Shown piece by piece: positions 4,195 to 31,486 of a stretch of DNA of 64,000 bases; positions within the stretch are counted from its first letter, which is position 1; each line of letters starts with the position of its first letter. Under the pieces are notes generated by a model. That model did no database searches, had not been told where the DNA came from, and saw nothing but the letters and a program-made list of their open reading frames with translations. The translations under genes were made by a program, and so were the position numbers. Source of the stretch: Crocinitomicaceae bacterium (GTDB lineage: Bacteria > Bacteroidota > Bacteroidia > Flavobacteriales_D > Crocinitomicaceae); NCBI GenBank assembly GCA_029254025.1, contig JAQWYK010000032.1, positions 1 to 64,000 of the forward strand, written 5' to 3'.

Positions 4195-5058
4195 ATGAAT
4201 ATAGGTCAAAAAATAAAAAATTACATTCTCTTTACGAAGTTTCGTTTATCTGCACTTGTCATAGTTTCGGCACTTTCGGGTTACCTTTTTGCAGGAGGTA
4301 AAACAGGTGGGGAAATTGCGCTCTTGATGCTAGGTGGGATTCTTGTTACTGCTGCAAGTAATGGGTCTAATCAGATTTGGGAGCGTAAGTTGGACATATT
4401 AATGAATCGCACTCAGAACAGACCTCTACCTCAAGGACAAATGTCTGTTGTGGAGGCAGTTATTGTTGTTTTGATTTGTCTATTAGGCGGTACTTATTTA
4501 TTGTATCAGCTCAATTTCTTCTCTGCGCTTTTAGGATTGATGGCATTTGTTTCATATGTATTTATTTACACACCGATGAAACAATTGACCCCATGGGCGG
4601 TAATTGTAGGTGCATTTCCTGGAGCGATTCCCCCTATGTTGGGTGCTATTGCTCATACAGGAGAGTTTGGCGCATTGCCAGGGGCGTTGTTTTTTGTTCA
4701 ATTTGTATGGCAACTTCCACACTTTTGGGCTATTGCTTGGGTGTGTCATGAAGATTACTCCAAAGGTGGTTTTTATCTTTTGCCCTCACGATCAGGAAAA
4801 ACCAAGTTAACTGCATTCCGAATTATGTTCTCAGCACTCATGCTAATTCCGTTTAGTCTTTTTCCATGGTTACTTGACTTGGTAGGTAATTTTAGCGTTG
4901 TGGTAGCCTCGGTAATTGGACTTGTTTTCTTTTTGTATGCTTACAGACTTTACCTAACACTCGATGATAAAGATGCTCGAAAATTGATGTTTACTTCGTT
5001 TATTTACTTACCGATAATTCAATTTGTTTACGTAGTTGACAAATACTTCTTTATGTAA
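4195..5058 (+). CDS. ctaB: Protoheme IX farnesyltransferase (heme O synthase)
   Basis: Integral membrane UbiA-family prenyltransferase that adds a farnesyl group to heme b to make heme O, the precursor of heme A for cytochrome oxidase. The 287 residues show about eight hydrophobic segments. The first Asp-rich loop is seen as SNQIWERKLDILMNRTQNRP (about 57-76) with the family's N...D...RT..RPLP pattern, and the second conserved loop as HFWAIAWVCHEDYSKGG (about 176-192). It leads the oxidase gene cluster, as in many Flavobacteriales, and supplies its cofactor. Also called cyoE; the link to an aa3/caa3 oxidase here favours ctaB. Confidence 0.96.
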   Translation: MNIGQKIKNYILFTKFRLSALVIVSALSGYLFAGGKTGGEIALLMLGGILVTAASNGSNQIWERKLDILMNRTQNRPLPQGQMSVVEAVIVVLICLLGGTYLLYQLNFFSALLGLMAFVSYVFIYTPMKQLTPWAVIVGAFPGAIPPMLGAIAHTGEFGALPGALFFVQFVWQLPHFWAIAWVCHEDYSKGGFYLLPSRSGKTKLTAFRIMFSALMLIPFSLFPWLLDLVGNFSVVVASVIGLVFFLYAYRLYLTLDDKDARKLMFTSFIYLPIIQFVYVVDKYFFM

Positions 5059-5156
5059 AACCGAACTTTGCAAAGATTGTTATAGTAGTTAATTTAACGC
5101 AGAAATTATTTCGAGCGTACTCAAGAAGAAATAAGAAACACAACAATTTAGAACAT

Positions 5157-6215
5157 ATGAAAAATGACTTTCAAAATGACGATAATCAGGTTGCTGAACA
5201 AAAAGCTAAGAAAAACCTTGTTTGGGTAATCGTTTTCAGCATCACTATGATGTTTGCAGGGTTTACATCTGCTTATATTGTGTCTATGGGAGATAGTTTT
5301 TGGGTGAAGATTGATTTGCCGATTGCTTTCTACTTCAGCACTGCCTTAATTCTGGCGAGCAGTGTAACCTTGTGGCTGGCTACTAAAGCTGTGGGCCAGC
5401 AGGCATTGTCAAAGGTAAAACTGCTGGTTGGAATTACACTAATTTTAGGTATTGGTTTTGGCTATTTTCAATTCAGAGGTTATGGACAATTGGTTGATAA
5501 AGGCGCAATGATGAATACCTGGATTATTGTTAATGATGGTCGTTATGGCGATTATTTTGAAATCAAAAAGAATGATCAATTCGTTGATATTGTAAATAAT
5601 CAATATGCACTCGGAGGTAAAGTGATGACCAAGGAGGAGTTGGAGGACCTAAAAGGTTTTGCCGAAAAGGTGGTAAATGAAACACATGTATCAGACTTAA
5701 CAACTCTGAACTATGGCGCTCCCTATCAGTTATACTATAAAGGAGAGCCACTTTCTATGTTGCAAGGAAAACTTACAAGGGTAAATGGGGAGGCGCTGAA
5801 ACCATTGGAGTTTGAGCGTTTGACCTATCTGGCGCAAAATATTATTGATAATCGTGCTGATTTTTTCATCAAAGGGGAAATGGGGAAGGACTTTACGTTA
5901 TACTACAAAGGAAAACCTTTGGATTATATTGATCGTAAATTATATTACAATGGAAAAGAGTTGAGTAATAACCTTAACAACAAGCTTTTAAGAGGTAATA
6001 AAGATACGAGTACGGCCTACTTTTACATTATCACATTCCTTCATTTGCTTCATGTGATAGCCGGGGTTATTATGCTACTCACCTTATTTAGAAAGAGTAT
6101 AAATGGTGAAATTCTACAGCGAAATGCCTTTTCAATTAAGGCTGGAAGTATTTTTTGGCATTTTTTAGGCGGTTTATGGATATATTTGTTGCTATTTTTA
6201 GTTTTTATTCATTAA
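5157..6215 (+). CDS. Cytochrome c oxidase subunit III with a large inserted repeat domain
   Basis: Membrane subunit of a heme-copper oxidase. Residues about 20-115 give three hydrophobic segments, and about 287-352 give the last two, including FYIITFLHLLHVIAGV and the closing SIFWHFLGGLWIYLLLFLVF that is typical of Cox3. Between them, residues about 120-285 form a hydrophilic insertion that ordinary bacterial Cox3 proteins (about 190-210 residues) lack. The insertion contains three similar units (about 131-175, 188-232, 244-280) sharing the pattern Y-x-LYYKG-x-PL...NG-x-L. It follows ctaB after 98 bp and lies 23 bp before a second Cox3 gene. The Cox3 assignment is firm; the inserted domain is of unknown function. 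Confidence 0.92.
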   Translation: MKNDFQNDDNQVAEQKAKKNLVWVIVFSITMMFAGFTSAYIVSMGDSFWVKIDLPIAFYFSTALILASSVTLWLATKAVGQQALSKVKLLVGITLILGIGFGYFQFRGYGQLVDKGAMMNTWIIVNDGRYGDYFEIKKNDQFVDIVNNQYALGGKVMTKEELEDLKGFAEKVVNETHVSDLTTLNYGAPYQLYYKGEPLSMLQGKLTRVNGEALKPLEFERLTYLAQNIIDNRADFFIKGEMGKDFTLYYKGKPLDYIDRKLYYNGKELSNNLNNKLLRGNKDTSTAYFYIITFLHLLHVIAGVIMLLTLFRKSINGEILQRNAFSIKAGSIFWHFLGGLWIYLLLFLVFIH

Positions 6216-6238
6216 ACTTGCAACAAATTATTTAGAAA

Positions 6239-7318
6239 ATGGCAGGACACGCTACTAACGAAATTGATGGCGCAATACTGTGGGGAGGAAAAGTATCCCC
6301 GTTCAGCGCGAGTTACGGTAAATTAATGATGTGGTTTTTCCTTGTTTCGGATGCCTTGACATTTGGAGGCCTCTTGGTGGCTTATGGATTCTCAAGATAT
6401 GCGTTTGATGGGATGTGGCCAATCGGAGAAGAAACTTTTGAAGCACTTCCATTCTTAGGGAACGGATTTCCTCTAGCTTATGTTGCTTTAATGACTTTCA
6501 TTTTGATTGTAAGTTCAGTGACTATGGTATTGGCTGTTGAGGCTGGTCACCGTATGGATAAAAAAGGTGTTGTGAAGTGGATGTTAGCGACCATTATTGG
6601 TGGTTTTTTCTTCTTGGGTTCGCAAGCTTGGGAATGGAGTCACTTTATTCATGGAACTGAATTTGGTCGTGTTGCCCTAAGTGATGGTTCTTCTGCTGTT
6701 GTAAAAGGTGAATTCGGAAAGATTGAAAGCTTCACGGTTATTGAAGTGGGTCATCATGCACATGGTATGGTTGCGGGTGATGAAATCACAAACGAGAACA
6801 TCGATGCTTCAGAAGTAGATTTGATGCATGCTTTTCAACATGCTGCTTCCGCTGGTCATTTACATGCTACAGCTGATGGTTTAACAATTACGTTGCATGA
6901 CGGTACGAAAGCTAAGGTTAATAAAGAAGCAGACAAGAATTTGGAATTATTGATAAAAGAAGCAGGTTCTAAATACCCAGTGTCACTCCCTTCAGATGCT
7001 TCAACGCGTGTTTCAGGTGAAGAAGCAATCTCCGAATATTACGAAGCATTATCTCATGGTAACGTGATTTACGGAGCTAACTTAGAACAAAATGAATATG
7101 GACCTAAGCAATATGGACAGTTTTTCTTCTTTATTACTGGATTCCATGGTTTTCACGTGTTTTCAGGTGTAATTATCAATATCCTAATTTTCGCTGGTGT
7201 ACTTAAAGGTATTTACCATAAAAGAGGGCACTACGAAATGGTAGAGAAAACTGGACTGTATTGGCACTTTGTCGATTTAGTATGGGTATTTGTATTTACA
7301 TTTTTCTACCTTATCTGA
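6239..7318 (+). CDS. Cytochrome c oxidase subunit III (second paralogue), His-rich insertion
   Basis: Second Cox3 gene of the cluster, 359 residues. Family features are SYGKLMMWFFLVSDALTFGG (about 25-44), LGSQAWEWSHFIHG (about 126-139), FFFFITGFHGFHVFSGV (about 295-311) and the final YWHFVDLVWVFVFTFFY. A hydrophilic stretch at about 141-285 interrupts the fold; it holds several histidines (GHHAHG near 171-176, HAFQH and GHLHA near 197-209). Long insertions at this place are common in Bacteroidota Cox3. The protein is an integral membrane oxidase subunit that associates with the catalytic subunits, which are not encoded in this window. Confidence 0.95.
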   Translation: MAGHATNEIDGAILWGGKVSPFSASYGKLMMWFFLVSDALTFGGLLVAYGFSRYAFDGMWPIGEETFEALPFLGNGFPLAYVALMTFILIVSSVTMVLAVEAGHRMDKKGVVKWMLATIIGGFFFLGSQAWEWSHFIHGTEFGRVALSDGSSAVVKGEFGKIESFTVIEVGHHAHGMVAGDEITNENIDASEVDLMHAFQHAASAGHLHATADGLTITLHDGTKAKVNKEADKNLELLIKEAGSKYPVSLPSDASTRVSGEEAISEYYEALSHGNVIYGANLEQNEYGPKQYGQFFFFITGFHGFHVFSGVIINILIFAGVLKGIYHKRGHYEMVEKTGLYWHFVDLVWVFVFTFFYLI

Positions 7319-7351
7319 TAGTTTGGATTGATTAAATTGAAATTTTAAATT

Positions 7352-7705
7352 ATGGAAAGAGACGACGTAATAGAGTATTCTTTAGACACCCATCACTCGG
7401 AAGAGCAGGGAAAGAAGATTCGTAAGAAAATTTGGATGGTGACGTTATTGCTGACAATTGTGACAGCTTTAGAAGTTGCTCTAGGTGCCATGGTAAAACA
7501 AGGAAGTGATGCTTGGTTCACTGTTAAAATCTTATTCATTTTATTGACTTTATTGAAAGCGGGTTATATTGTACTAACATTTATGCACTTGGGTGATGAG
7601 CGCAAGGTGCTGAAGTGGATGGTATTGCTGCCCTACGCAACATTTATAATTTATTTAATGTTCATTGCATTTACAGAGGGAAGTGCTGTAGCTTTGGCGA
7701 TGTAA
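7352..7705 (+). CDS. Cytochrome c oxidase subunit IV-like membrane protein
   Basis: A 117-residue protein with three hydrophobic segments (about 27-47, 57-78 and 87-110) and the family-like stretch TLLKAGYIVLTFMHLGDERK (about 68-87). It matches the small bacterial subunit IV (CtaF/Cox4_pro type) that follows Cox3 in oxidase operons. The N-terminus is short, charged and has a His pair (LDTHHSEEQ). It lies 33 bp after the second Cox3 gene and 12 bp before the next gene, so it is part of the operon. Confidence 0.88.
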   Translation: MERDDVIEYSLDTHHSEEQGKKIRKKIWMVTLLLTIVTALEVALGAMVKQGSDAWFTVKILFILLTLLKAGYIVLTFMHLGDERKVLKWMVLLPYATFIIYLMFIAFTEGSAVALAM

Positions 7706-7717
7706 ATTGACTATAAA

Positions 7718-8410
7718 GTGGCTATACAAGGATCTAAAGCCGGCCGTCTAAAACCAATACTCATGTTGTTCTTGGTTTTCGGGCCGGCTCTTTTATTAAT
7801 ATTCGTTTCATTAAATAAGTGCGAGCATAAGTTTGAGCAACTACCCGTTTATGGTAAGTTGGATGATTTCAAATTTGTTTCCGCATCCGGTGATGAAATT
7901 ACTCCCGAAACCCAACTAGGTAAGGTAACTTTGTATTCTACCGTTCAAGCGGGTTGTCCTGAGAATTGTGCTATTGACCTGTTGAAATATAATATGATGG
8001 TCTATCAGCATTACCGCAAGTATCAAAAGAAGATGGGGCACATTAAATTTGTTTCTATCGTTACAGATCAAGACGGAAATCCAGTGGATGACTTAACGGA
8101 AGTTGAATTTTTAATGAATGATATTGTTCAGGGCTATGACCCTTCTATCTGGACACTAGTAACGGGTGATCCTAAGCAAATTTATGACATTGAAAACAAT
8201 GATGTTAACCTGGTTACGATGAAAAGTGATACCGCATTCGCAACAAAACCTTATCTCGAAATGTTACTCATTGTAGATAAAGAGAATAATCTCAGGTTGG
8301 TGCGAAAAGGAAACCAAGAAGGACTTATTCGAGACTTTAAGGAACACATTGCATTACTTCAAAAACAGTATGACAAAGCAGCATACAAAGCGCGTAAGGA
8401 AGCAGAATAG
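7718..8410 (+). CDS. SCO-like thioredoxin-fold protein without the copper histidine
   Basis: A 230-residue membrane-anchored protein starting with GTG. It has one N-terminal membrane segment (about 12-31) and then a periplasmic thioredoxin-like domain. A CPENC motif (C80, C84) occupies the place of the SCO CxxxC copper site. The later region TKPYLEMLLIVD aligns with the SCO segment that holds the copper-binding histidine, but no histidine is present there. It is placed between the subunit IV gene and a canonical SCO gene (1 bp gap). It could be a redox partner or chaperone in Cu(A) assembly; a role as a copper carrier by itself is doubtful. The function is inferred. Confidence 0.72.
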   Translation: MAIQGSKAGRLKPILMLFLVFGPALLLIFVSLNKCEHKFEQLPVYGKLDDFKFVSASGDEITPETQLGKVTLYSTVQAGCPENCAIDLLKYNMMVYQHYRKYQKKMGHIKFVSIVTDQDGNPVDDLTEVEFLMNDIVQGYDPSIWTLVTGDPKQIYDIENNDVNLVTMKSDTAFATKPYLEMLLIVDKENNLRLVRKGNQEGLIRDFKEHIALLQKQYDKAAYKARKEAE

Positions 8411-8411
8411 C

Positions 8412-9062
8412 ATGAAATTAGTCAGTTTACTTTTCATTCTTGCAGGAATAGTTGTTTCATGCGAGCAATTAAACGATTCAATGCAGGAAGGATTGCCATA
8501 CATTGGTCATTATGATATTGCCTTTGAAGAAGGCGATGGTTATTCAATCGGAGATACCATATACCATAAAGTTCCGGAGTTTGCATACCTCACACAAGAC
8601 TCAACAGAGTTAAGTTCAGCGGATATTGATGGCAAGGTATGGGTGGCGAAGTTCTTCTTTTCAACTTGTCCTACCATTTGCCCGCCAATGACTTCTTCCA
8701 TGAAGCAATTACGCAATGACATGATGGACTTCAACGATGATTTGGTTTACTTGGCTTTTTCTATCAATCCTGAAAAAGATACTCCCGAACGTCTGCGTGA
8801 ATATATCGCCGAACACGAAATTGATAATACGGAGGATTGGTACTTTTTAACTGGAGTGGATGAAGAGGAGACACATCTTTTGGGGACAGAAGGGTTTAAA
8901 ATTCATGCGATGTTTGATGATAATGCGCCTGGTGGATATGCACACAGTCCCAATTTTATTCTAGTTGATCAAAACAGGCACATTAGAGGTTTATATGATG
9001 GATTAGAACCAGATGACGTAAATCAACTAAAAGAAGACATTAAAAAATTACTGAAGAAATGA
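8412..9062 (+). CDS. SCO1/SenC-family copper chaperone lipoprotein
   Basis: I start this gene at 8412 rather than at an upstream in-frame codon, because that ATG gives a lipoprotein signal (MKLVSLLFILAGIVVSC, Cys17 as lipid site) and follows an AAGGAAG-like sequence. The 216-residue product has the SCO copper site CPTIC (C86, C90) and the conserved histidine in GGYAHSPNFILVD (H178). SCO proteins deliver copper to the Cu(A) centre of oxidase subunit II or keep its cysteines reduced. It acts at the periplasmic face. Its last codons overlap the DUF420 gene by 4 nt. Confidence 0.94.
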   Translation: MKLVSLLFILAGIVVSCEQLNDSMQEGLPYIGHYDIAFEEGDGYSIGDTIYHKVPEFAYLTQDSTELSSADIDGKVWVAKFFFSTCPTICPPMTSSMKQLRNDMMDFNDDLVYLAFSINPEKDTPERLREYIAEHEIDNTEDWYFLTGVDEEETHLLGTEGFKIHAMFDDNAPGGYAHSPNFILVDQNRHIRGLYDGLEPDDVNQLKEDIKKLLKK

Positions 9063-9589
9063 TGGAGTCAAATCACACAGATGCTCAACTAGCGAAGTTT
9101 AGAAAACTTATTATAGCCCTTTCTATTGTTATTCCCCTGGCAGTGGCTGCATTGTTTGGAATTAAAATACCTGGTGTGGATTTTTCTTTTCTACCTCCAA
9201 TTTATGCTGGGATTAACGGATTAACTGCTGTTGTTCTTGTGAGCGCATTAGTCGCGATTAAAACAAAGAATATAAAACTGCATCAACGGTTGATTCAAAC
9301 GGCTTTAGTGCTATCGTTGTTGTTTTTAGTGGCTTATGTAGCGTATCATATCACTTCGGACTCTACAAGTTACGGTGGAGAATTCCCTCGCTTATACTAT
9401 TTCATTCTAATTTCACACATCGTATTGAGTGTTGTAGTGATTCCAATTGTGCTATTTACGTACTTATTCGCATGGCAAGGTAATTTTAAACGTCACAAAA
9501 AATGGACGCGATTTGCTTTTCCGATTTGGTTGTATGTGGCAATTACAGGTGTTGTTGTCTATTCTATGATTTCACCTTTTTACAACTAG
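9059..9589 (+). CDS. DUF420 integral membrane protein
   Basis: A 176-residue membrane protein with five hydrophobic segments, recognised as the DUF420 type that regularly ends oxidase assembly clusters after SCO. Histidines at the ends of helices (KLHQRLIQTAL, AYHITSD, ISHIVLSVV, RHKKWTR) are typical of the group and could bind heme or metal, but no biochemical role is established to my knowledge. It starts inside the end of the SCO gene (ATGA overlap) and is followed after 7 bp by exodeoxyribonuclease III. Confidence 0.85.
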   Translation: MMESNHTDAQLAKFRKLIIALSIVIPLAVAALFGIKIPGVDFSFLPPIYAGINGLTAVVLVSALVAIKTKNIKLHQRLIQTALVLSLLFLVAYVAYHITSDSTSYGGEFPRLYYFILISHIVLSVVVIPIVLFTYLFAWQGNFKRHKKWTRFAFPIWLYVAITGVVVYSMISPFYN

Positions 9590-21414: not shown

Positions 21415-21531
21415 ATGAACTCACCCCTCAATAAGGATTGATTAAATCAGATACGCCTCTGCTATCGTGTTAATATTGATATTTCGTAGCTTATTAAACG
21501 ATTGAATGGGGTGTGTTTCAAGTTCGTTTAG

Positions 21532-21539
21532 TAATTTTG
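21532..21539 (+). promoter_or_regulatory. Candidate -7 box for the methionine-salvage operon
   Basis: TAATTTTG lies 5 nt before the mtnB ATG at 21545. A transcript would begin at or just before the start codon. No -33 half at normal spacing. No SAM riboswitch fold was recognised in the gap before it. Confidence 0.35.
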
Positions 21540-21544
21540 TTTTC

Positions 21545-22174
21545 ATGCAGAAGGAAGAAATATCAAACTCTTTAGCGGATCTAATCGTTGCTTTTCATCA
21601 TAAAGGATGGTCGGCAGCTACTGGAACAAATTACTCGTTTCGCCTGTCGGTAGCTGAAGATACTTATTGGGTATCTCAATCTGGAAAGGACAAATCGATC
21701 TTTGAATCTGATGACTTTATGAAGGTTGAATTATCTGGTGATGTTTGCCCAGGCTTCGAACATCTGAAACCGTCAGCCGAAAATTTGCTCCATGCAGTCA
21801 TTTATCAAAACTCAACGGCGCAGGTCATTTTGCATAGTCACTCGGTTTATTCAACTCTACTATCTCAATATGCTGTAGATAAATCGGAGCATTCTTTAAG
21901 GCTTCAAGGGTATGAAGTTCAAAAGGCAATTGCCGGCGTTACGTCACATGATCAGGAAGTTATGATTCCTGTTTTTGAGAACACTCAAAATATGCATTCC
22001 TTAAAAAACAGTATTGAGGATAGGTGGAAGTTTTGTAGTAAGGCGGCCGGCTTTCTGATAGGCAACCACGGTTTATACACTTGGGGTAAGGACTTAGCAA
22101 CAGCGAAGCGCCACATAGAGGCTTACGAGTTTTTACTGGAGTGTTTATACAAGCGCATGTTATTAAATAAGTAG
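21545..22174 (+). CDS. mtnB: Methylthioribulose-1-phosphate dehydratase
   Basis: Class II aldolase-family enzyme of the methionine salvage pathway; dehydrates 5-methylthioribulose-1-phosphate to the diketone. I start at ATG 21545 (209 residues), because the residues before it are not family-like and a TAnnTTTG box lies just upstream. The family start WSAATGTNYSFR (about 22-33), the zinc motif VILHSHSVYSTLL (H97, H99) and GNHGLYTWGKDLATAKRHIE near the end are seen. First gene of a tight operon, 3 bp before mtnD. Confidence 0.93.
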   Translation: MQKEEISNSLADLIVAFHHKGWSAATGTNYSFRLSVAEDTYWVSQSGKDKSIFESDDFMKVELSGDVCPGFEHLKPSAENLLHAVIYQNSTAQVILHSHSVYSTLLSQYAVDKSEHSLRLQGYEVQKAIAGVTSHDQEVMIPVFENTQNMHSLKNSIEDRWKFCSKAAGFLIGNHGLYTWGKDLATAKRHIEAYEFLLECLYKRMLLNK

Positions 22175-22177
22175 AAT

Positions 22178-22693
22178 ATGGCTATTTTAACCATTCCCGA
22201 TGACGGGATACAAATCAACAACGTCGAAGAAATTCGATCTTTTTTGAACGATCGAGGTGTATTTTATGACATTTGGGATACTGTTCATGTCAATAATGAC
22301 GACTCCATGGAGGTAATTCTTGAAAAATATACGCCCTTTTTGAAACCGTATATGGAAAAGAATGGATACCAAGTAGCTGACGTAATTAACATTAATGAAC
22401 AGACTGAGAACTATCAGGCCCTCCGAAATAAATTCTTAGCAGAACACATTCATACGGAAGATGAGGTACGCTATTTTATAGATGGTGAGGGAATTTTTTG
22501 GTTTCATCTTGAAAATGGTGAAGTCTTTAACGTTTTGTGCCAATCAGGTGATTTGATATCTGTTCCGGCTGGAGTTAAACATTGGTTTGATGCCGGGGAA
22601 AAGCCATTCGTTAAAGTAATTCGCATTTTTATTGATATAAGTGGATGGGTGCCACACTATACAGAATCGTCTATCGAAAAGAATTATATTTAA
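22178..22693 (+). CDS. mtnD: Acireductone dioxygenase
   Basis: Cupin-fold metal dioxygenase that converts acireductone and O2 to 2-oxo-4-methylthiobutanoate (iron form) or to an off-pathway product with CO (nickel form). The 171 residues contain all four metal ligands: HIHTEDEVR (H90, H92, E96) and AGVKHWFD (H135). It ends in TAATG, sharing one base with the mtnC start. Confidence 0.95.
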   Translation: MAILTIPDDGIQINNVEEIRSFLNDRGVFYDIWDTVHVNNDDSMEVILEKYTPFLKPYMEKNGYQVADVININEQTENYQALRNKFLAEHIHTEDEVRYFIDGEGIFWFHLENGEVFNVLCQSGDLISVPAGVKHWFDAGEKPFVKVIRIFIDISGWVPHYTESSIEKNYI

Positions 22694-23388
22694 TGCAACA
22701 ACCTAAATTTATTTTGACGGATATTGAGGGTACAACTACTCCAAAAACATTCGTGTTTGATGTTTTATTCCCTTATTTTTTGGCACACCTAGACGAGGTG
22801 CGGATTCACCAAAATGTGGCGGATTTTTCAAAGTGTATATTAGACGTTAAAGAAACGTTGAAGTCGGAAAATGGGCGTACTTCAGTATCATTAGAGGATG
22901 TGCTTGAAACTCTAAAAAACTGGGTTGAGACTGATAGGAAACACCCTGCGTTAAAAACATTACAGGGATTAATCTGGGAAAATGGATATCGCAAAGGTTT
23001 GTTAAAAGGAGTTTTATACGAAGATGTGCCGACTCAATTAAAAAAGTGGTCTAAAGAAGGTATCAAGTTGGGCGTATATTCTTCTGGATCAGTGAAGGCG
23101 CAAAAGCTACTTTTTGGTTTTTCAAATTTTGGAAATTTCTGTACATTATTTCATGCCTATTTTGATACGGGCGTCGGAAATAAAAGAGAAGTTGAGGCAT
23201 ACGACAGAATTGTTCAAGAGCTCGTCATAGATGTTGGGGATATTTTGTTTCTTTCAGACATCGCTGAGGAATTAGACGCAGCAAGTCAAGCAGGAATGCA
23301 GACTATACAGTTAATTCGTGATGAAACAGTATCTCCGGCGATTAACCATTCGCAGGTTAAATCATTTAATGAAATTATATGGAAGTAA
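22693..23388 (+). CDS. mtnC: Enolase-phosphatase E1
   Basis: HAD-superfamily bifunctional enzyme that enolises and dephosphorylates 2,3-diketo-5-methylthiopentyl-1-phosphate to acireductone. The start at 22693 (231 residues) puts the nucleophile motif FILTDIEGTTTPKTFVFDVL at residues 6-25, as in MtnC, where the second acidic residue of the motif is Glu. The second motif VYSSGSVKAQKLLFG and the last ILFLSDIAEELDAASQAGM are present. It overlaps mtnD by 1 nt and mtnA by 10 nt. Confidence 0.95.
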   Translation: MQQPKFILTDIEGTTTPKTFVFDVLFPYFLAHLDEVRIHQNVADFSKCILDVKETLKSENGRTSVSLEDVLETLKNWVETDRKHPALKTLQGLIWENGYRKGLLKGVLYEDVPTQLKKWSKEGIKLGVYSSGSVKAQKLLFGFSNFGNFCTLFHAYFDTGVGNKREVEAYDRIVQELVIDVGDILFLSDIAEELDAASQAGMQTIQLIRDETVSPAINHSQVKSFNEIIWK

Positions 23389-24470
23389 CGATACCGATAC
23401 CGTTAAGAACACTTTGGGAACACGAAGATCATATAGTAGTTATTGATCAACTAAAATTACCGCATCAATTTGTAATCGAGCACGTTAGGTCATTAAGGGC
23501 AGCGGTTTGGGTAATTAAAGAAATGGTGGTTCGTGGGGCTCCGTTAATTGCCTGTACAGGTGCATATGGAGTTTATTTTGGACTTAGAGATGCTCCAAGT
23601 AGTTCTGATTTAAAAAGCATACTTTCTGAACTTAGAAATTCGCGTCCAACTGCAGTCAATCTGTTTAATACAATGGATCGTTTGGAAGAAGAACTCTCTA
23701 AGTGCCAATCACTACAAGAAATGAGAGTGAAATCGCTTGAATTAGCGCGTCAAATTGTTGAGGAGGATGTTGAGATTTGTAGATTGATTGGTGTAAGTGG
23801 ATTACCATTGATAGAAGCCATACATGCAAACAATCCGGAAAGACCAGTTCATATTTTAACGCATTGTAACGCTGGAATGTTAGGCTGTATAGAGTGGGGT
23901 ACAATTAGTTCACCAATATATCAAGCTAACTCCAAAGGCATACCGGTTCATGTTTGGGTTGACGAAACCCGACCGCGTAATCAAGGTGCTAATCTTACTG
24001 CTTGGGAATTGACTCAAAATGGAATAGAACATACCGTAATCGTTGATAACACTGGTGGACACCTAATGCAAAAAGGAATGGTTGACTTGGTAATAGTTGG
24101 GGCTGATCGTGTTACACGTAATGGTGACACAGCAAATAAAATTGGGACTTACCTAAAGGCCTTGGCCGCTAAGGATAATAAGGTTCCATTTTATATCGCA
24201 TTACCCTCAACGTCAGTGGATTGGAAAACATGTGATGGTGTTAAAGAAATAGAAATTGAGGAGCGGAGTCCTGATGAGGTAAAATATGTTTGGGGAAATA
24301 ACGATAAAGGCGAGTTTGAACGAGTATTGATTTGCCCTGAAACGAGCCCTGCTTTGAATATCGGATTTGACGTAACCCCAGCAAGATTAATTAGTGGTCT
24401 GATTACAGATAGGGGTATTTGTGATGCCAGCGAACAGGGGCTGCTTAAATTGTTTCCTGAAAAACATTGA
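23379..24470 (+). CDS. mtnA: S-methyl-5-thioribose-1-phosphate isomerase
   Basis: Converts methylthioribose-1-phosphate to methylthioribulose-1-phosphate. The 363 residues include VRGAPLIACTGAYG (about 52-65), the catalytic cysteine in ILTHCNAGMLGC (C163), WVDETRPRNQGANLTAWEL (about 193-211), and the catalytic aspartate in VIVGADRVTRNGDTANKIGT (D243). It could be confused with eIF2B-like proteins, but these motifs and the neighbours settle it. It overlaps mtnC by 10 nt, indicating translational coupling. Confidence 0.96.
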   Translation: MEVTIPIPLRTLWEHEDHIVVIDQLKLPHQFVIEHVRSLRAAVWVIKEMVVRGAPLIACTGAYGVYFGLRDAPSSSDLKSILSELRNSRPTAVNLFNTMDRLEEELSKCQSLQEMRVKSLELARQIVEEDVEICRLIGVSGLPLIEAIHANNPERPVHILTHCNAGMLGCIEWGTISSPIYQANSKGIPVHVWVDETRPRNQGANLTAWELTQNGIEHTVIVDNTGGHLMQKGMVDLVIVGADRVTRNGDTANKIGTYLKALAAKDNKVPFYIALPSTSVDWKTCDGVKEIEIEERSPDEVKYVWGNNDKGEFERVLICPETSPALNIGFDVTPARLISGLITDRGICDASEQGLLKLFPEKH

Positions 24471-28312: not shown

Positions 28313-30760
28313 ATGAAATTCCAACTATTACTCGCTTTTGTGCTTGTTTTTTGTGTATCTATTGTAGGTGCACAGATTACCCAAAATGTACGTGGAACTG
28401 TCGTAGACGTAGAATCTAAATACCCTTTAATTGGAGTAAAAGTACAAATCTACACCTCTGATTCTACCCTATTTCGTGGATTAACTGACGAATATGGAGA
28501 TTTCGAATTACGTAACGTGCCAGTAGGTAAGTATGAAATCACGTTTGATTATAATTTTTATAATTCCTCGAAACAAACGGTTATTGTTCAATCGGGTAAG
28601 GAAAGTATTGTTAACTCGGAGTTGGAAGAAGAAATCATCACCACCGAAGAGGTAGAAATTATTGGTAATGCAAATAAAGATGTTCAAAATGAAATGGCAC
28701 TTGTTTCTGCGCAACAATTTAGTATTGAAGAAACAGAAAGGTATCCTGGTTCTCGAGCAGATCCGGCGAGGATGGCTAGCAATTTTGCTGGTGTTCAAGG
28801 TGCGGATGATACACGAAATGACATTGTAATAAGAGGTAATTCCCCATTGGGATTAATTTATAAAGTAGAAGGAGTTGATATTCCAAATCCAAATCATTTC
28901 GCTATTTCAGGCTCTGCTGGTGGTCCAGTAGCAATTATTAATAATAAGATTTTAGGGAATTCTGACTTTTTTATGTCTGCTTTTCCTGCTGAATATGGAA
29001 ATAGTATTTCTGGGGTGTTTGATTTAAGGTTTCGAAATGGTAATCAAACAAAGCACGAGTTGACAGGTCAATTTGGTTTCTTGGGAACCGAAATCATGGC
29101 GGAAGGACCAATTAACAAAGAAAAAAGATCAAGTTACCTATTTATGGGACGTTACTCTACATTGAGCATGTTTCAAGCGATTGGTATAAGTATCGGTACA
29201 GATGCTGTTCCTGTTTATGGGGATGGTGCATTTAAATTTTCATTTCCACAGAAAAATGGTGGTAATCTATCTTTTTTTGGAATGGGTGGAGCTTCTTCAA
29301 TAGATATTGTAGTTTCTGAACAAACTGAAGTGGTTGAAGAGGCTTTTGGCGAAGGAGATCGAGATCAATACTTCAAAACATCTATGGGTATTTTTGGTGC
29401 TACTTATAAAAAGCCACTAAATGAAAACACGTTTATCAAAACAACCATTGCTACTACGTTTGACACACAAAATGCAAATCATAATTTCTTGATTCGCTCA
29501 TTGGATACAGCTTTGGTTAATGGCGAACAATCTGTGAGTATTCGTACAGATAGCATTTACCCGCTAATGGGGTATCAATTCAAAACCAATCGACTTTCTT
29601 GGTATGGGGCAATTAATCACAAGATTTCCAAACAACATATCATTAAAGCAGGTTTTAATGTGGATGGGTACTTGATGAAAAATATTGATTCAGCGTTAAA
29701 TGCTGCTCATGATCAGTTCCGAATTCGTCATGATTTTGAAGGCATGTCTTTTTTGATTCAACCGTTTGTTCAGTACAAATGGAAAGTTAATCAGCATATG
29801 GATCTTACTGCTGGTATTCATAGCCAATATTTCTCGTTAAGTAATAGCATTAGCTATGCTGAACCAAGATTAGGTTGGCAATACCGTTTGAAAAACAAGC
29901 AAGTATTGAGCGCAGGTGCAGGTTTGCATAGTCAAACACAACCGTTATATCAATACACTTATCAGCGATATGACGCTCAAAGTAATCCAGTGTTACATAA
30001 TAAAAACATGGATTTCACGCGTAGCTTTCATTCTGCTGTTGGTTATGAGAAGACATTTGAGAAATCATTGCGTTTCAAATCAGAGGTTTATTACCAGCAA
30101 CTATATAATATTCCAGTGGATATGAAGCCAAGTGCTTTTAGCTTAATTAATCAAGGTTCAGGTTTTCAAAGATTTTTCCCAGATACTCTGGTAAATAATG
30201 GTACGGCTAGAAATTATGGAATTGAATTAACTGTTCAGAAGTTTTTTGATCAGTCTTTCTTTTATATGATCACTGCTTCCTTCTTTGAATCAAAGTATAA
30301 CGGAAGCGATGGTGTGGAGAGAGATACTGACTTTAATGGGAACTATGCGGCCAATTTTTTGGCCGGAAGGGAATTTAAGATCAAGGACAAAAACGTTCTA
30401 TCCCTAGGATTGAAATTCACTGTCGCGGGCGGTAGAAGATATGGAGATGTTGATGTTCCAGCAACGCTCGAGGAAAATGAGTTGATATTTCAAGATGAAG
30501 GATTTAATTCACGACAATTTGATGATTATTATCGTTTAGACTTCCGAACAACATATAAGATTAATACTAAAAAGTTGACCCACGAGATAGGTCTGGATCT
30601 GGTGAACATTTTGAACACGAGGAACATTCTCGCTTTGTCATACGCACCAAGTTTGTCGGATCCCACGGCTGAACCGATTGCTGAACGTTACCAACTTGGG
30701 TTTTTACCTATTTTCTATTATCGTGTAGATTTTAGGTTGGAAAAGCAAAATAAGAACTAG
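28313..30760 (+). CDS. TonB-dependent outer-membrane receptor
   Basis: An 815-residue outer-membrane transporter. Order: signal peptide (1 to about 20), carboxypeptidase-regulatory-like domain (about 25-105; RGTVVDVESKYPLIGVKV), plug (about 130-240; DIVIRGNSPLGLIYKVEGVDIPNPNHF) and a 22-strand-type beta-barrel to the end. The wording RGNSPLG...PNPNHF matches a TonB receptor group of unknown substrate. It is probably co-transcribed with the peptide-binding lipoprotein. The stop shares CTAG with the opposing HNH gene. Confidence 0.92.
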   Translation: MKFQLLLAFVLVFCVSIVGAQITQNVRGTVVDVESKYPLIGVKVQIYTSDSTLFRGLTDEYGDFELRNVPVGKYEITFDYNFYNSSKQTVIVQSGKESIVNSELEEEIITTEEVEIIGNANKDVQNEMALVSAQQFSIEETERYPGSRADPARMASNFAGVQGADDTRNDIVIRGNSPLGLIYKVEGVDIPNPNHFAISGSAGGPVAIINNKILGNSDFFMSAFPAEYGNSISGVFDLRFRNGNQTKHELTGQFGFLGTEIMAEGPINKEKRSSYLFMGRYSTLSMFQAIGISIGTDAVPVYGDGAFKFSFPQKNGGNLSFFGMGGASSIDIVVSEQTEVVEEAFGEGDRDQYFKTSMGIFGATYKKPLNENTFIKTTIATTFDTQNANHNFLIRSLDTALVNGEQSVSIRTDSIYPLMGYQFKTNRLSWYGAINHKISKQHIIKAGFNVDGYLMKNIDSALNAAHDQFRIRHDFEGMSFLIQPFVQYKWKVNQHMDLTAGIHSQYFSLSNSISYAEPRLGWQYRLKNKQVLSAGAGLHSQTQPLYQYTYQRYDAQSNPVLHNKNMDFTRSFHSAVGYEKTFEKSLRFKSEVYYQQLYNIPVDMKPSAFSLINQGSGFQRFFPDTLVNNGTARNYGIELTVQKFFDQSFFYMITASFFESKYNGSDGVERDTDFNGNYAANFLAGREFKIKDKNVLSLGLKFTVAGGRRYGDVDVPATLEENELIFQDEGFNSRQFDDYYRLDFRTTYKINTKKLTHEIGLDLVNILNTRNILALSYAPSLSDPTAEPIAERYQLGFLPIFYYRVDFRLEKQNKN

Positions 30761-31335
30761 AAAGAAGCACTGGCTTTAAGGGTGTTGTATACATGTGATA
30801 CGCTGCAATTGAATTTATTTGCCAGCTTTTGCATGGTATAACCATCCTTTTCACGGAGACGTTTTATTTCTTTTTTGTCTCTAGTTGTTAAAGGATCTGG
30901 TTTCCCCATTCGTTTTAATGTGCCACTTGGGCCATATTTTTTTCTACGAATGTCCCATAGTTTTTTCATATCTCGTGATGAACTGTCAAATGCAATTTTA
31001 CACGCTTCCTTGTGGCTCGTCCATTTCAGATTACTTTTCTCATTGTTTGATACGTTTCCATCCAAATGAATAACAACTTTATGCTTTCTGGGGTGCTTAT
31101 TGATTACGAATGCTTCACCCACTGCTTTATGAACATATACGGTTCTTAATTTCCCCTTGTCATCGATTAAGTCAGTCATCTGGTAATTATTAGAAGGATG
31201 AACACGTAGTTTCCGATCTTTCGATTTAAAATGCATTGTTCTGCCTGATTTGAAGACTTTTGTTCGTTCTTTTGAACGTATTTCGCCTTTTGAAGAAACT
31301 TCGTAATCACTGAACCCTGGAATAGTTGCCCACAT
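30757..31335 (-). CDS. Free-standing NUMOD4/HNH endonuclease
   Basis: A 192-residue nuclease. I start at the ATG giving MWATIPGFSDYEVSSKGEIR, the NUMOD4 DNA-binding motif; longer readings add only a hydrophobic non-family stretch. The HNH part is VHKAVGEAFV...VIHLDGNVSNNEKSNLKWTS (about 85-125). The C-terminus (about 150-190) looks like a helix-turn-helix: GYTMQKLANKFNCSVSHVYN. Such proteins are homing-type endonucleases or phage nucleases. Neither flanking gene appears interrupted and no intron is seen, so it is a stand-alone copy, probably acquired horizontally. Confidence 0.86.
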   Translation of the reverse strand: MWATIPGFSDYEVSSKGEIRSKERTKVFKSGRTMHFKSKDRKLRVHPSNNYQMTDLIDDKGKLRTVYVHKAVGEAFVINKHPRKHKVVIHLDGNVSNNEKSNLKWTSHKEACKIAFDSSSRDMKKLWDIRRKKYGPSGTLKRMGKPDPLTTRDKKEIKRLREKDGYTMQKLANKFNCSVSHVYNTLKASASF

Positions 31336-31486
31336 CTCAATTAGTTTTGGATTAAAATAAAGAAACAACAGGTCAGGAAAATAGTTCACGTAGAGGGTTT
31401 AATTTCTATGGCTCTCATTGAGGGTACAACAAAAATTAGTGGCATTAATTTCTTTGGTTTTAGCGTGCGTAATTCATAAGATTGTT

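Follow-up and report, generated by a model that had tools for sequence, protein, structure and literature searches.

What is a long hydrophilic segment doing in the middle of a membrane subunit of a cytochrome oxidase, and how did it come to be there? The question is raised by the gene cox3a, which lies in a window of 64,000 nucleotides (the whole stretch of DNA analysed here) in a row of oxidase genes on the forward strand, with the order ctaB-cox3a-cox3b-cox4-SCO-SCO-DUF420 (4195-9589; Table 1). Cox3a is thus encoded beside other oxidase genes, and cox1 and cox2 sit behind act genes on a different contig. For the second of the two SCO1/SenC-like genes, an ATG start was picked inside the open reading frame 8349-9062. 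Elsewhere in the window, a gene row resembling a methionine salvage cluster occupies positions 21506-24470, with products that we take to be class II aldolase-like, acireductone dioxygenase-like, enolase-phosphatase-like, and MtnA-like, and what is presumably a small NUMOD/HNH-type endonuclease-like open frame lies on the reverse strand (30757-31389) beside a TonB-dependent receptor-like gene.

Table 1. Features of the oxidase gene row and of the Cox3a insert (positions are those of the window; residues are those of Cox3a)
Feature	Position	Strand	Basis or remarks
UbiA-family prenyltransferase, heme O synthase (CtaB) by context	4195..5058	+	Pfam UbiA 5e-55
Cox3a, five-helix cytochrome c oxidase subunit III, 352 aa	5157..6215	+	ORF, phmmer, Foldseek, Pfam COX3
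Cox3a insert, residues 108-286 (179 residues)	5478..6014	+	loop TM3-TM4
Unit 1, residues 126-174	5532..5678	+	strands 134-138, 141-146, 149-152, helix 159-175 (model)
Unit 2, residues 185-232	5709..5852	+	strands 190-194, 200-202, 205-207, helix 216-230 (model)
Unit 3, residues 237-284	5865..6008	+	strands 246-250, 256-258, 261-264, helix 271-280 (model)
Cox3b, second five-helix Cox3 with its own long loop	6239..7318	+	
Cox4 (prokaryotic subunit IV)	7352..7705	+	Pfam COX4_pro 2.9e-11
SCO1/SenC-like protein, first of tandem pair	7718..8410	+	Pfam 1.7e-5 (weak)
SCO1/SenC-like protein, second of pair	8412..9062	+	Pfam 1.5e-23 (strong)
DUF420 membrane protein	9059..9589	+	Pfam 7.4e-42

Cox3a is a cytochrome c oxidase subunit III by its homology to solved chains, its five-helix membrane fold, and its oxidase gene context. 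Its best phmmer match is the Paracoccus-type Cox3 9fks_i (E 1.7e-5, residues 286-347). The Pfam COX3 profile (PF00510) reaches 22.3 bits (E 1.4e-4; gathering score 23.8) over residues 287-349 only, behind the insert, which interrupts the profile, and the NCBIfam models matched all stay below their own cut-offs. The AlphaFold2 model of the protein, built from 42 sequences (the window protein and named loci), has a mean pLDDT of 92.1 and a pTM of 0.85, with helices at residues 5-46, 56-80, 84-114, 284-315, and 325-350. In a Foldseek search with this model, ranks 1-39 are all oxidase chains, the best E being 1.2e-3 and none reaching 0.001 or below; subunit III of the E. coli bo3 oxidase (7xmc_C) is matched with a TMt of 0.78, a probability of 1.00, and an E of 1.2e-3. 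The five-helix bacterial type is common to Cox3a, the E. coli bo3 subunit, and CtaE of Mycobacterium. Residues H296, H299, W334, and W341 are invariant in the alignments made here.

The first-pass annotation had described residues 120-285 (5514-6011) as a hydrophilic region interrupting the Cox3 membrane fold, and such a region does separate hydrophobic helices three and four. Since residues 288-347 align with residues 196-255 of the bovine chain 1occ_C, the insert sits in the loop preceding the helix equivalent to TM6 of bovine COX3. From the bovine topology, we take the TM3-TM4 loop of Cox3a to be on the outer (periplasmic/intermembrane) side, a placement with which the loop charges agree only loosely. 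Residues 108-286 contain 24 Lys and Arg, 25 Asp and Glu, a single His, and no Cys. Cys occurs in 12 of 60 three-unit inserts, and no insert position holds a Cys or His conserved in at least 85% of the 60 sequences; by its sequence, the insert has no obvious cofactor site. Its dN/dS was 0.071, 0.072, 0.027, and 0.040 in the four usable pairs out of seven tried (the synonymous distance of the insert was saturated in the other three, which were left out). The membrane parts in the same pairs span 0.016-0.112, which takes in all four values, and the insert as a whole is therefore maintained by purifying selection.

The insert contains three homologous units, with borders taken from a 51-position unit profile whose training set included these units. 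The threefold repeat, which had been proposed from the window alone, is confirmed by hhalign comparisons between unit alignments of 60 three-unit sequences, with E values of 5.4e-10 for units 1 and 2, 2.5e-12 for units 1 and 3, and 3.2e-12 for units 2 and 3. In 200 column permutations, no observed unit-unit score was reached, and two transmembrane control segments were matched by the units with probabilities of only 0.06-2.1%. As an independent test, the cut segments were searched with a profile drawn solely from 33 Cox3a proteins of other families that have one unit. It gives 23.3 bits for unit 3 of the window (best of 1000 shuffles, 9.6) and 13.4 bits for unit 2 (best shuffle, 9.4). The 1.9 bits of unit 1 lie inside the shuffle range (best 6.1), so that this unit is recognised via the family alignment and not from the window sequence alone. 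Among the 60 three-unit proteins, the one-unit profile exceeds 3 bits in 20 for unit 1, 34 for unit 2, and all 60 for unit 3, and its hhalign comparison with the three unit alignments yields E values of 8.4e-9, 7.9e-11, and 9.5e-13, respectively. Over 18 aligned sequences, four of them with one unit, no variation is seen at G240, G243, D245, F246, and L255 of unit 3. The repeat in Cox3a is almost certainly real.

Two details of the earlier description had to be revised. The pattern Y-x-LYYKG-x-PL had been assigned to all three units; its core LYYKG-x-PL is present in units 2 and 3, whereas unit 1 reads YFEIKKNDQFV. Similarly, the matching helix described for the first two units is there, but it is not limited to them, as the model also places a short helix in unit 3. 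According to the AlphaFold2 model, each unit would consist of three strands followed by a helix (134-152/159-175; 190-207/216-230; 246-264/271-280). When the insert was modelled alone, from 25 sequences, the elements were near-identical except for a missing first strand in unit 3 (pLDDT 78.2, pTM 0.72).

Searches for relatives of this module returned little. Foldseek found no match to the insert in the PDB at E <= 0.001 (best 0.64) and no significant match among viral models, and the best VIA-align result was a Z of 3.3 (Cdc5 polo-box), followed by 2.5 (7cg0_f, and AcrIF13 over unit 3). A predicted fold that lacks a significant solved or viral match would not by itself amount to a new fold. 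At the sequence level, no Pfam family matched the window insert above its curated cut-off (best E 0.2, 11.9 bits against a cut-off of 25.4), and no NCBIfam family matched it at E up to 1. The other 24 inserts had a best Pfam E of 0.0096, the best PDB sequence matched the insert profile at E 0.19, and the best PHROGs match (E 0.028) was a family of unknown function. Among 28 PDB sequences matching Cox3a, the best-matching stretch lies over the units only in a COP9 chain (E 1.1). Within the libraries searched, the repeat is thus without a matching family, and the earlier proposal of a soluble threefold domain on the outer side of Cox3 is supported. A small search of one library found no literature on such a Cox3 insert.

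One family deserved a closer look. Toprim_C_rpt (PF13368) shows a weak match in four of 25 inserts (best E 0.028), and the GRYGDY of unit 1 resembles its GRFGPY. In a comparison using repeats from loci of 29 genomes, the own genome included (97 distinct rows), its score was reached by 0 of 100 permutations for unit 1, 1 of 100 for unit 2, 1 of 100 for the one-unit profile, and 20 of 100 for unit 3. However, the hhalign alignment covers just 8-11 of the 43 columns, and an origin from topoisomerase repeats was rejected as a short motif match only. Topoisomerase chains are absent from the fold matches of the insert, an absence that shows nothing. A mobile or shared domain was likewise rejected: the insert profile, at E up to 10, matches only Cox3a in its own genome, and the further loci read in the class are Cox3a as well. 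None of 31 pattern matches in viral contigs was confirmed as a relative of the unit.

The units do have relatives inside Cox3a itself. A total of 136 Cox3a loops were measured between two conserved residues, and units were counted at E <= 0.01 with a combined profile whose training used one-unit and three-unit copies, so that it gives an independent count only for the loops that are unit-free, intermediate, or longest. Two fragments at contig ends, in genomes G047 (L057) and G039 (L058), were excluded. The lengths fall into classes: 34 residues (n=34), 57 (n=1; L120), 80-98 (n=33), 135-170 (n=3), 190-204 (n=60), and 259-263 (n=5). All 35 loops shorter than 60 residues have no unit and all 33 loops of 80-98 residues have one, and among the 60 loops of 190-204 residues there are 58 with three units and two with four matches. 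The five longest loops have three or four matches, with about 70 extra residues only partly recognised. The loop also lengthens without recognisable units, as seen in the three intermediate cases, with one match each. These 136 loops are no random sample, since the 80 named loci were those out of 564 that most resemble the window protein, which favours three-unit relatives. The survey nonetheless qualifies the initial claim that ordinary Cox3 proteins lack the domain: this holds for 35 of the 136, but 33 carry one copy in the same loop, and the taxonomic survey of the insertion that had been suggested as a check yields proteins with 0, 1, 3 or more units.

The family to which the window belongs falls in the three-unit class. 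The members of this family by name include Lishizhenia and Fluviicola, both Crocinitomicaceae, and one of its genomes (G006) shares an identical Cox3a membrane part with Lishizhenia tianjinensis; judging from these sequences, the family is very probably Crocinitomicaceae. A Cox3a match was found in 35 of its 36 genomes, and all 35 are in the three-unit length class. Among the 59 relatives, the genome with no Cox3a match (G016) is 79% complete. The 23 other genomes of the order comprise 14 with one unit, three with intermediate loops, three with the longest loops, one with three units (G045), and two with fragments. In a sample of 395 genomes of the phylum, 199 have Cox3a matches, and among the matches listed from outside the order most have open frames that, at 188-212 residues, leave no room for a unit. 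The insert profile matches 27 of 198 genomes of the class at E <= 0.1, five of the own family and the rest others; seven further matched loci from outside the own order all turned out to be one-unit Cox3a, and the matches in the other 15 genomes are weaker. In records of metagenome-assembled genomes titled Chryseobacterium gleum (loci L063, L064, L068, L071), a three-unit Cox3a groups with the own-family genomes, and these titles look unreliable.

The single unit of other Bacteroidia (for example at L043, L048, L087, and L179-L185) occupies the same loop, mostly with a G-x-Y-G-x-D-[YF] start, and its counterpart among the three units of the window protein is unit 3. As one copy exists in many Bacteroidia Cox3a proteins, the repeat reflects a unit that was already there and was multiplied in one lineage, not the arrival of a foreign domain. 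Most simply, units 1 and 2 would be old extra copies of unit 3, with growth from one to three copies as the presumed direction, and it is very likely that the repeat grew from a single unit. In an unrooted tree of the membrane parts (134 rows; bootstrap unsettled, some long branches, fragments L056 and L083 left out), the unit-free rows lie on one side of a branch with support 89/82. On this tree, five changes are required for the three-unit label, while the strongly supported branches are compatible with one origin, and a topology that joins every row of three or more units in one clade was only just not rejected (p-AU 0.062).

Such a history could be explained by a neutral ratchet, in which extra copies are tolerated in the loop although they have no specific task, and persist through co-folding alone. 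The differences in unit number and loop length between families would fit with this, as would the equally variable and unrelated loops of Cox3b in the same place. However, four pairs give an insert dN/dS of 0.03-0.07, the 60 three-unit sequences keep a loop of 190-204 residues, and no loss was found in 35 own-family genomes, which makes the neutral explanation unlikely.

If the units have a job, the nature of the oxidase is of relevance. The own genome (99.9% complete) contains one COX1 match, located in the gene row actA-B-C-D-E-F, cox2, cox1, where ActD was called by Pfam, ActC as NrfD, ActA and ActE by their cytochrome domains, and ActB and ActF by order alone. Because the sole COX1 lies in an act-cox2-cox1 row, the oxidase is an aa3 oxidase linked to alternative complex III (ACIII). 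ActA contains six CxxCH motifs and an N-terminal cytochrome c domain with a CATCH at residue 44, and no heme motif was found in Cox2. From its sequences, the chain looks like the ACIII-aa3 type of Flavobacterium, for which the literature used was PMC8361435, PMC8552683, and PMC5928083. The likeness to the F. johnsoniae aa3 oxidase in its ACIII supercomplex, as described in PMC8361435 and PMC8552683, comprises the type of ACIII operon, a six-heme ActA with an N-terminal domain, and a five-helix subunit III. A second ActA-like protein, 36% identical, is encoded in one relative of the order (G044:C5:83481-84671).

In F. johnsoniae, ACIII and the oxidase touch each other through the five-helix subunit III, and the variability of this subunit may serve different partners (PMC8361435). 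On this ground, the most likely job for the units would be that of an outer clamp or scaffold. Standing above the membrane on its outer side, the units would provide a protein surface free of cofactors that packs against the oxidase and, as the most likely further partner, against the neighbouring ACIII (ActA/ActB/ActE), and would in this way stabilise or orient the ACIII-aa3 supercomplex. ACIII is more likely to lie beside the units than is a soluble cytochrome c, since the oxidase is linked to ACIII and ActA has a cytochrome c domain of its own. Against this, 11 Cox3a loci of the genus Flavobacterium have 34-residue loops without a unit (F. johnsoniae is not among them), yet F. johnsoniae forms the supercomplex, which weakens the putative ACIII contact to a tentative proposal. 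Moreover, ActA was found in all 59 relatives and Cox2 in 58 of them, whatever the number of units, and the units are therefore not essential for ACIII coupling as such. The explanation as a whole, with three tandem units as copies of unit 3 and a putative outer scaffold at the contact of oxidase and ACIII, has about an even chance of being right.

The units may instead pack on the oxidase only (Cox2, Cox3b, or Cox1), stabilising its outer face or its assembly with ACIII uninvolved. Several features of the other subunits point in this direction. Cox4 and two SCO-like genes follow downstream in the cox3a row, and Cox3b carries its own loop, some 150 residues long (about 6650-7114 in the window), in the same place as the Cox3a insert, with nine His and no Cys over residues 140-285. 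Cox2 is enlarged in its cupredoxin part, and its open frame is also long in the family with the longest Cox3a loops (f3; 445, 515, and 525). However, the Cox3b loops span 37-237 residues within the three-unit class, and the Cox2 frames of the own family (395-465) overlap widely, by their ranges, with those of the one-unit families. Packing on the oxidase only is a reasonable possibility, if short of probable. The enlargement of Cox2 (L061:10967-12229) is visible in its match to Pfam COX2, at 17.4 bits against a cut-off of 22 over residues 286-369; the match covers only profile positions 46-117 and begins 137 residues after the transmembrane part, and the genome-wide COX2 search missed the protein. 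Its open frames are 383-577 long in 55 of 58 genomes, and 1011, 348, and 315 in the others. Neither Cox2 nor Cox3b was retained as a carrier of the unit: the unit profile is silent for both at E up to 10, and for Cox3b the hhalign scores lie within the permutations (3-10 of 60 reach them).

Docking of a cytochrome c is normally done by Cox2, usually on an acidic face. The module could nevertheless serve for docking the N-terminal cytochrome c domain of ActA, a mobile one, or another cytochrome, and steer it towards the CuA of Cox2. An N-terminal domain of this kind is present in the ActA here, and its mobile counterpart in F. johnsoniae is a proposed shuttle to cytochrome aa3 (PMC8552683). The same domain, however, serves F. 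johnsoniae, whose genus has unit-free Cox3a (11 loci), and the insert has near-equal charges rather than such an acidic face, so that a docking role is decidedly improbable.

The scaffold or clamp on the outer side, which we prefer, bears on a part of the oxidase that is regarded as conserved: in PMC8361435, the core of subunits I-III is described as conserved and structurally almost identical in mammals, yeast, and many bacteria. In Cox3a, a core subunit itself bears a countable outer module, in 0, 1, 3 or more copies. The number of copies might set the hold of the aa3 oxidase on ACIII, with the Crocinitomicaceae having multiplied the module as a lineage-specific supercomplex clamp, an idea that is at present rather doubtful. 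The natural copy-number series of the units offers a means to ask how ACIII-oxidase supercomplexes hold together.
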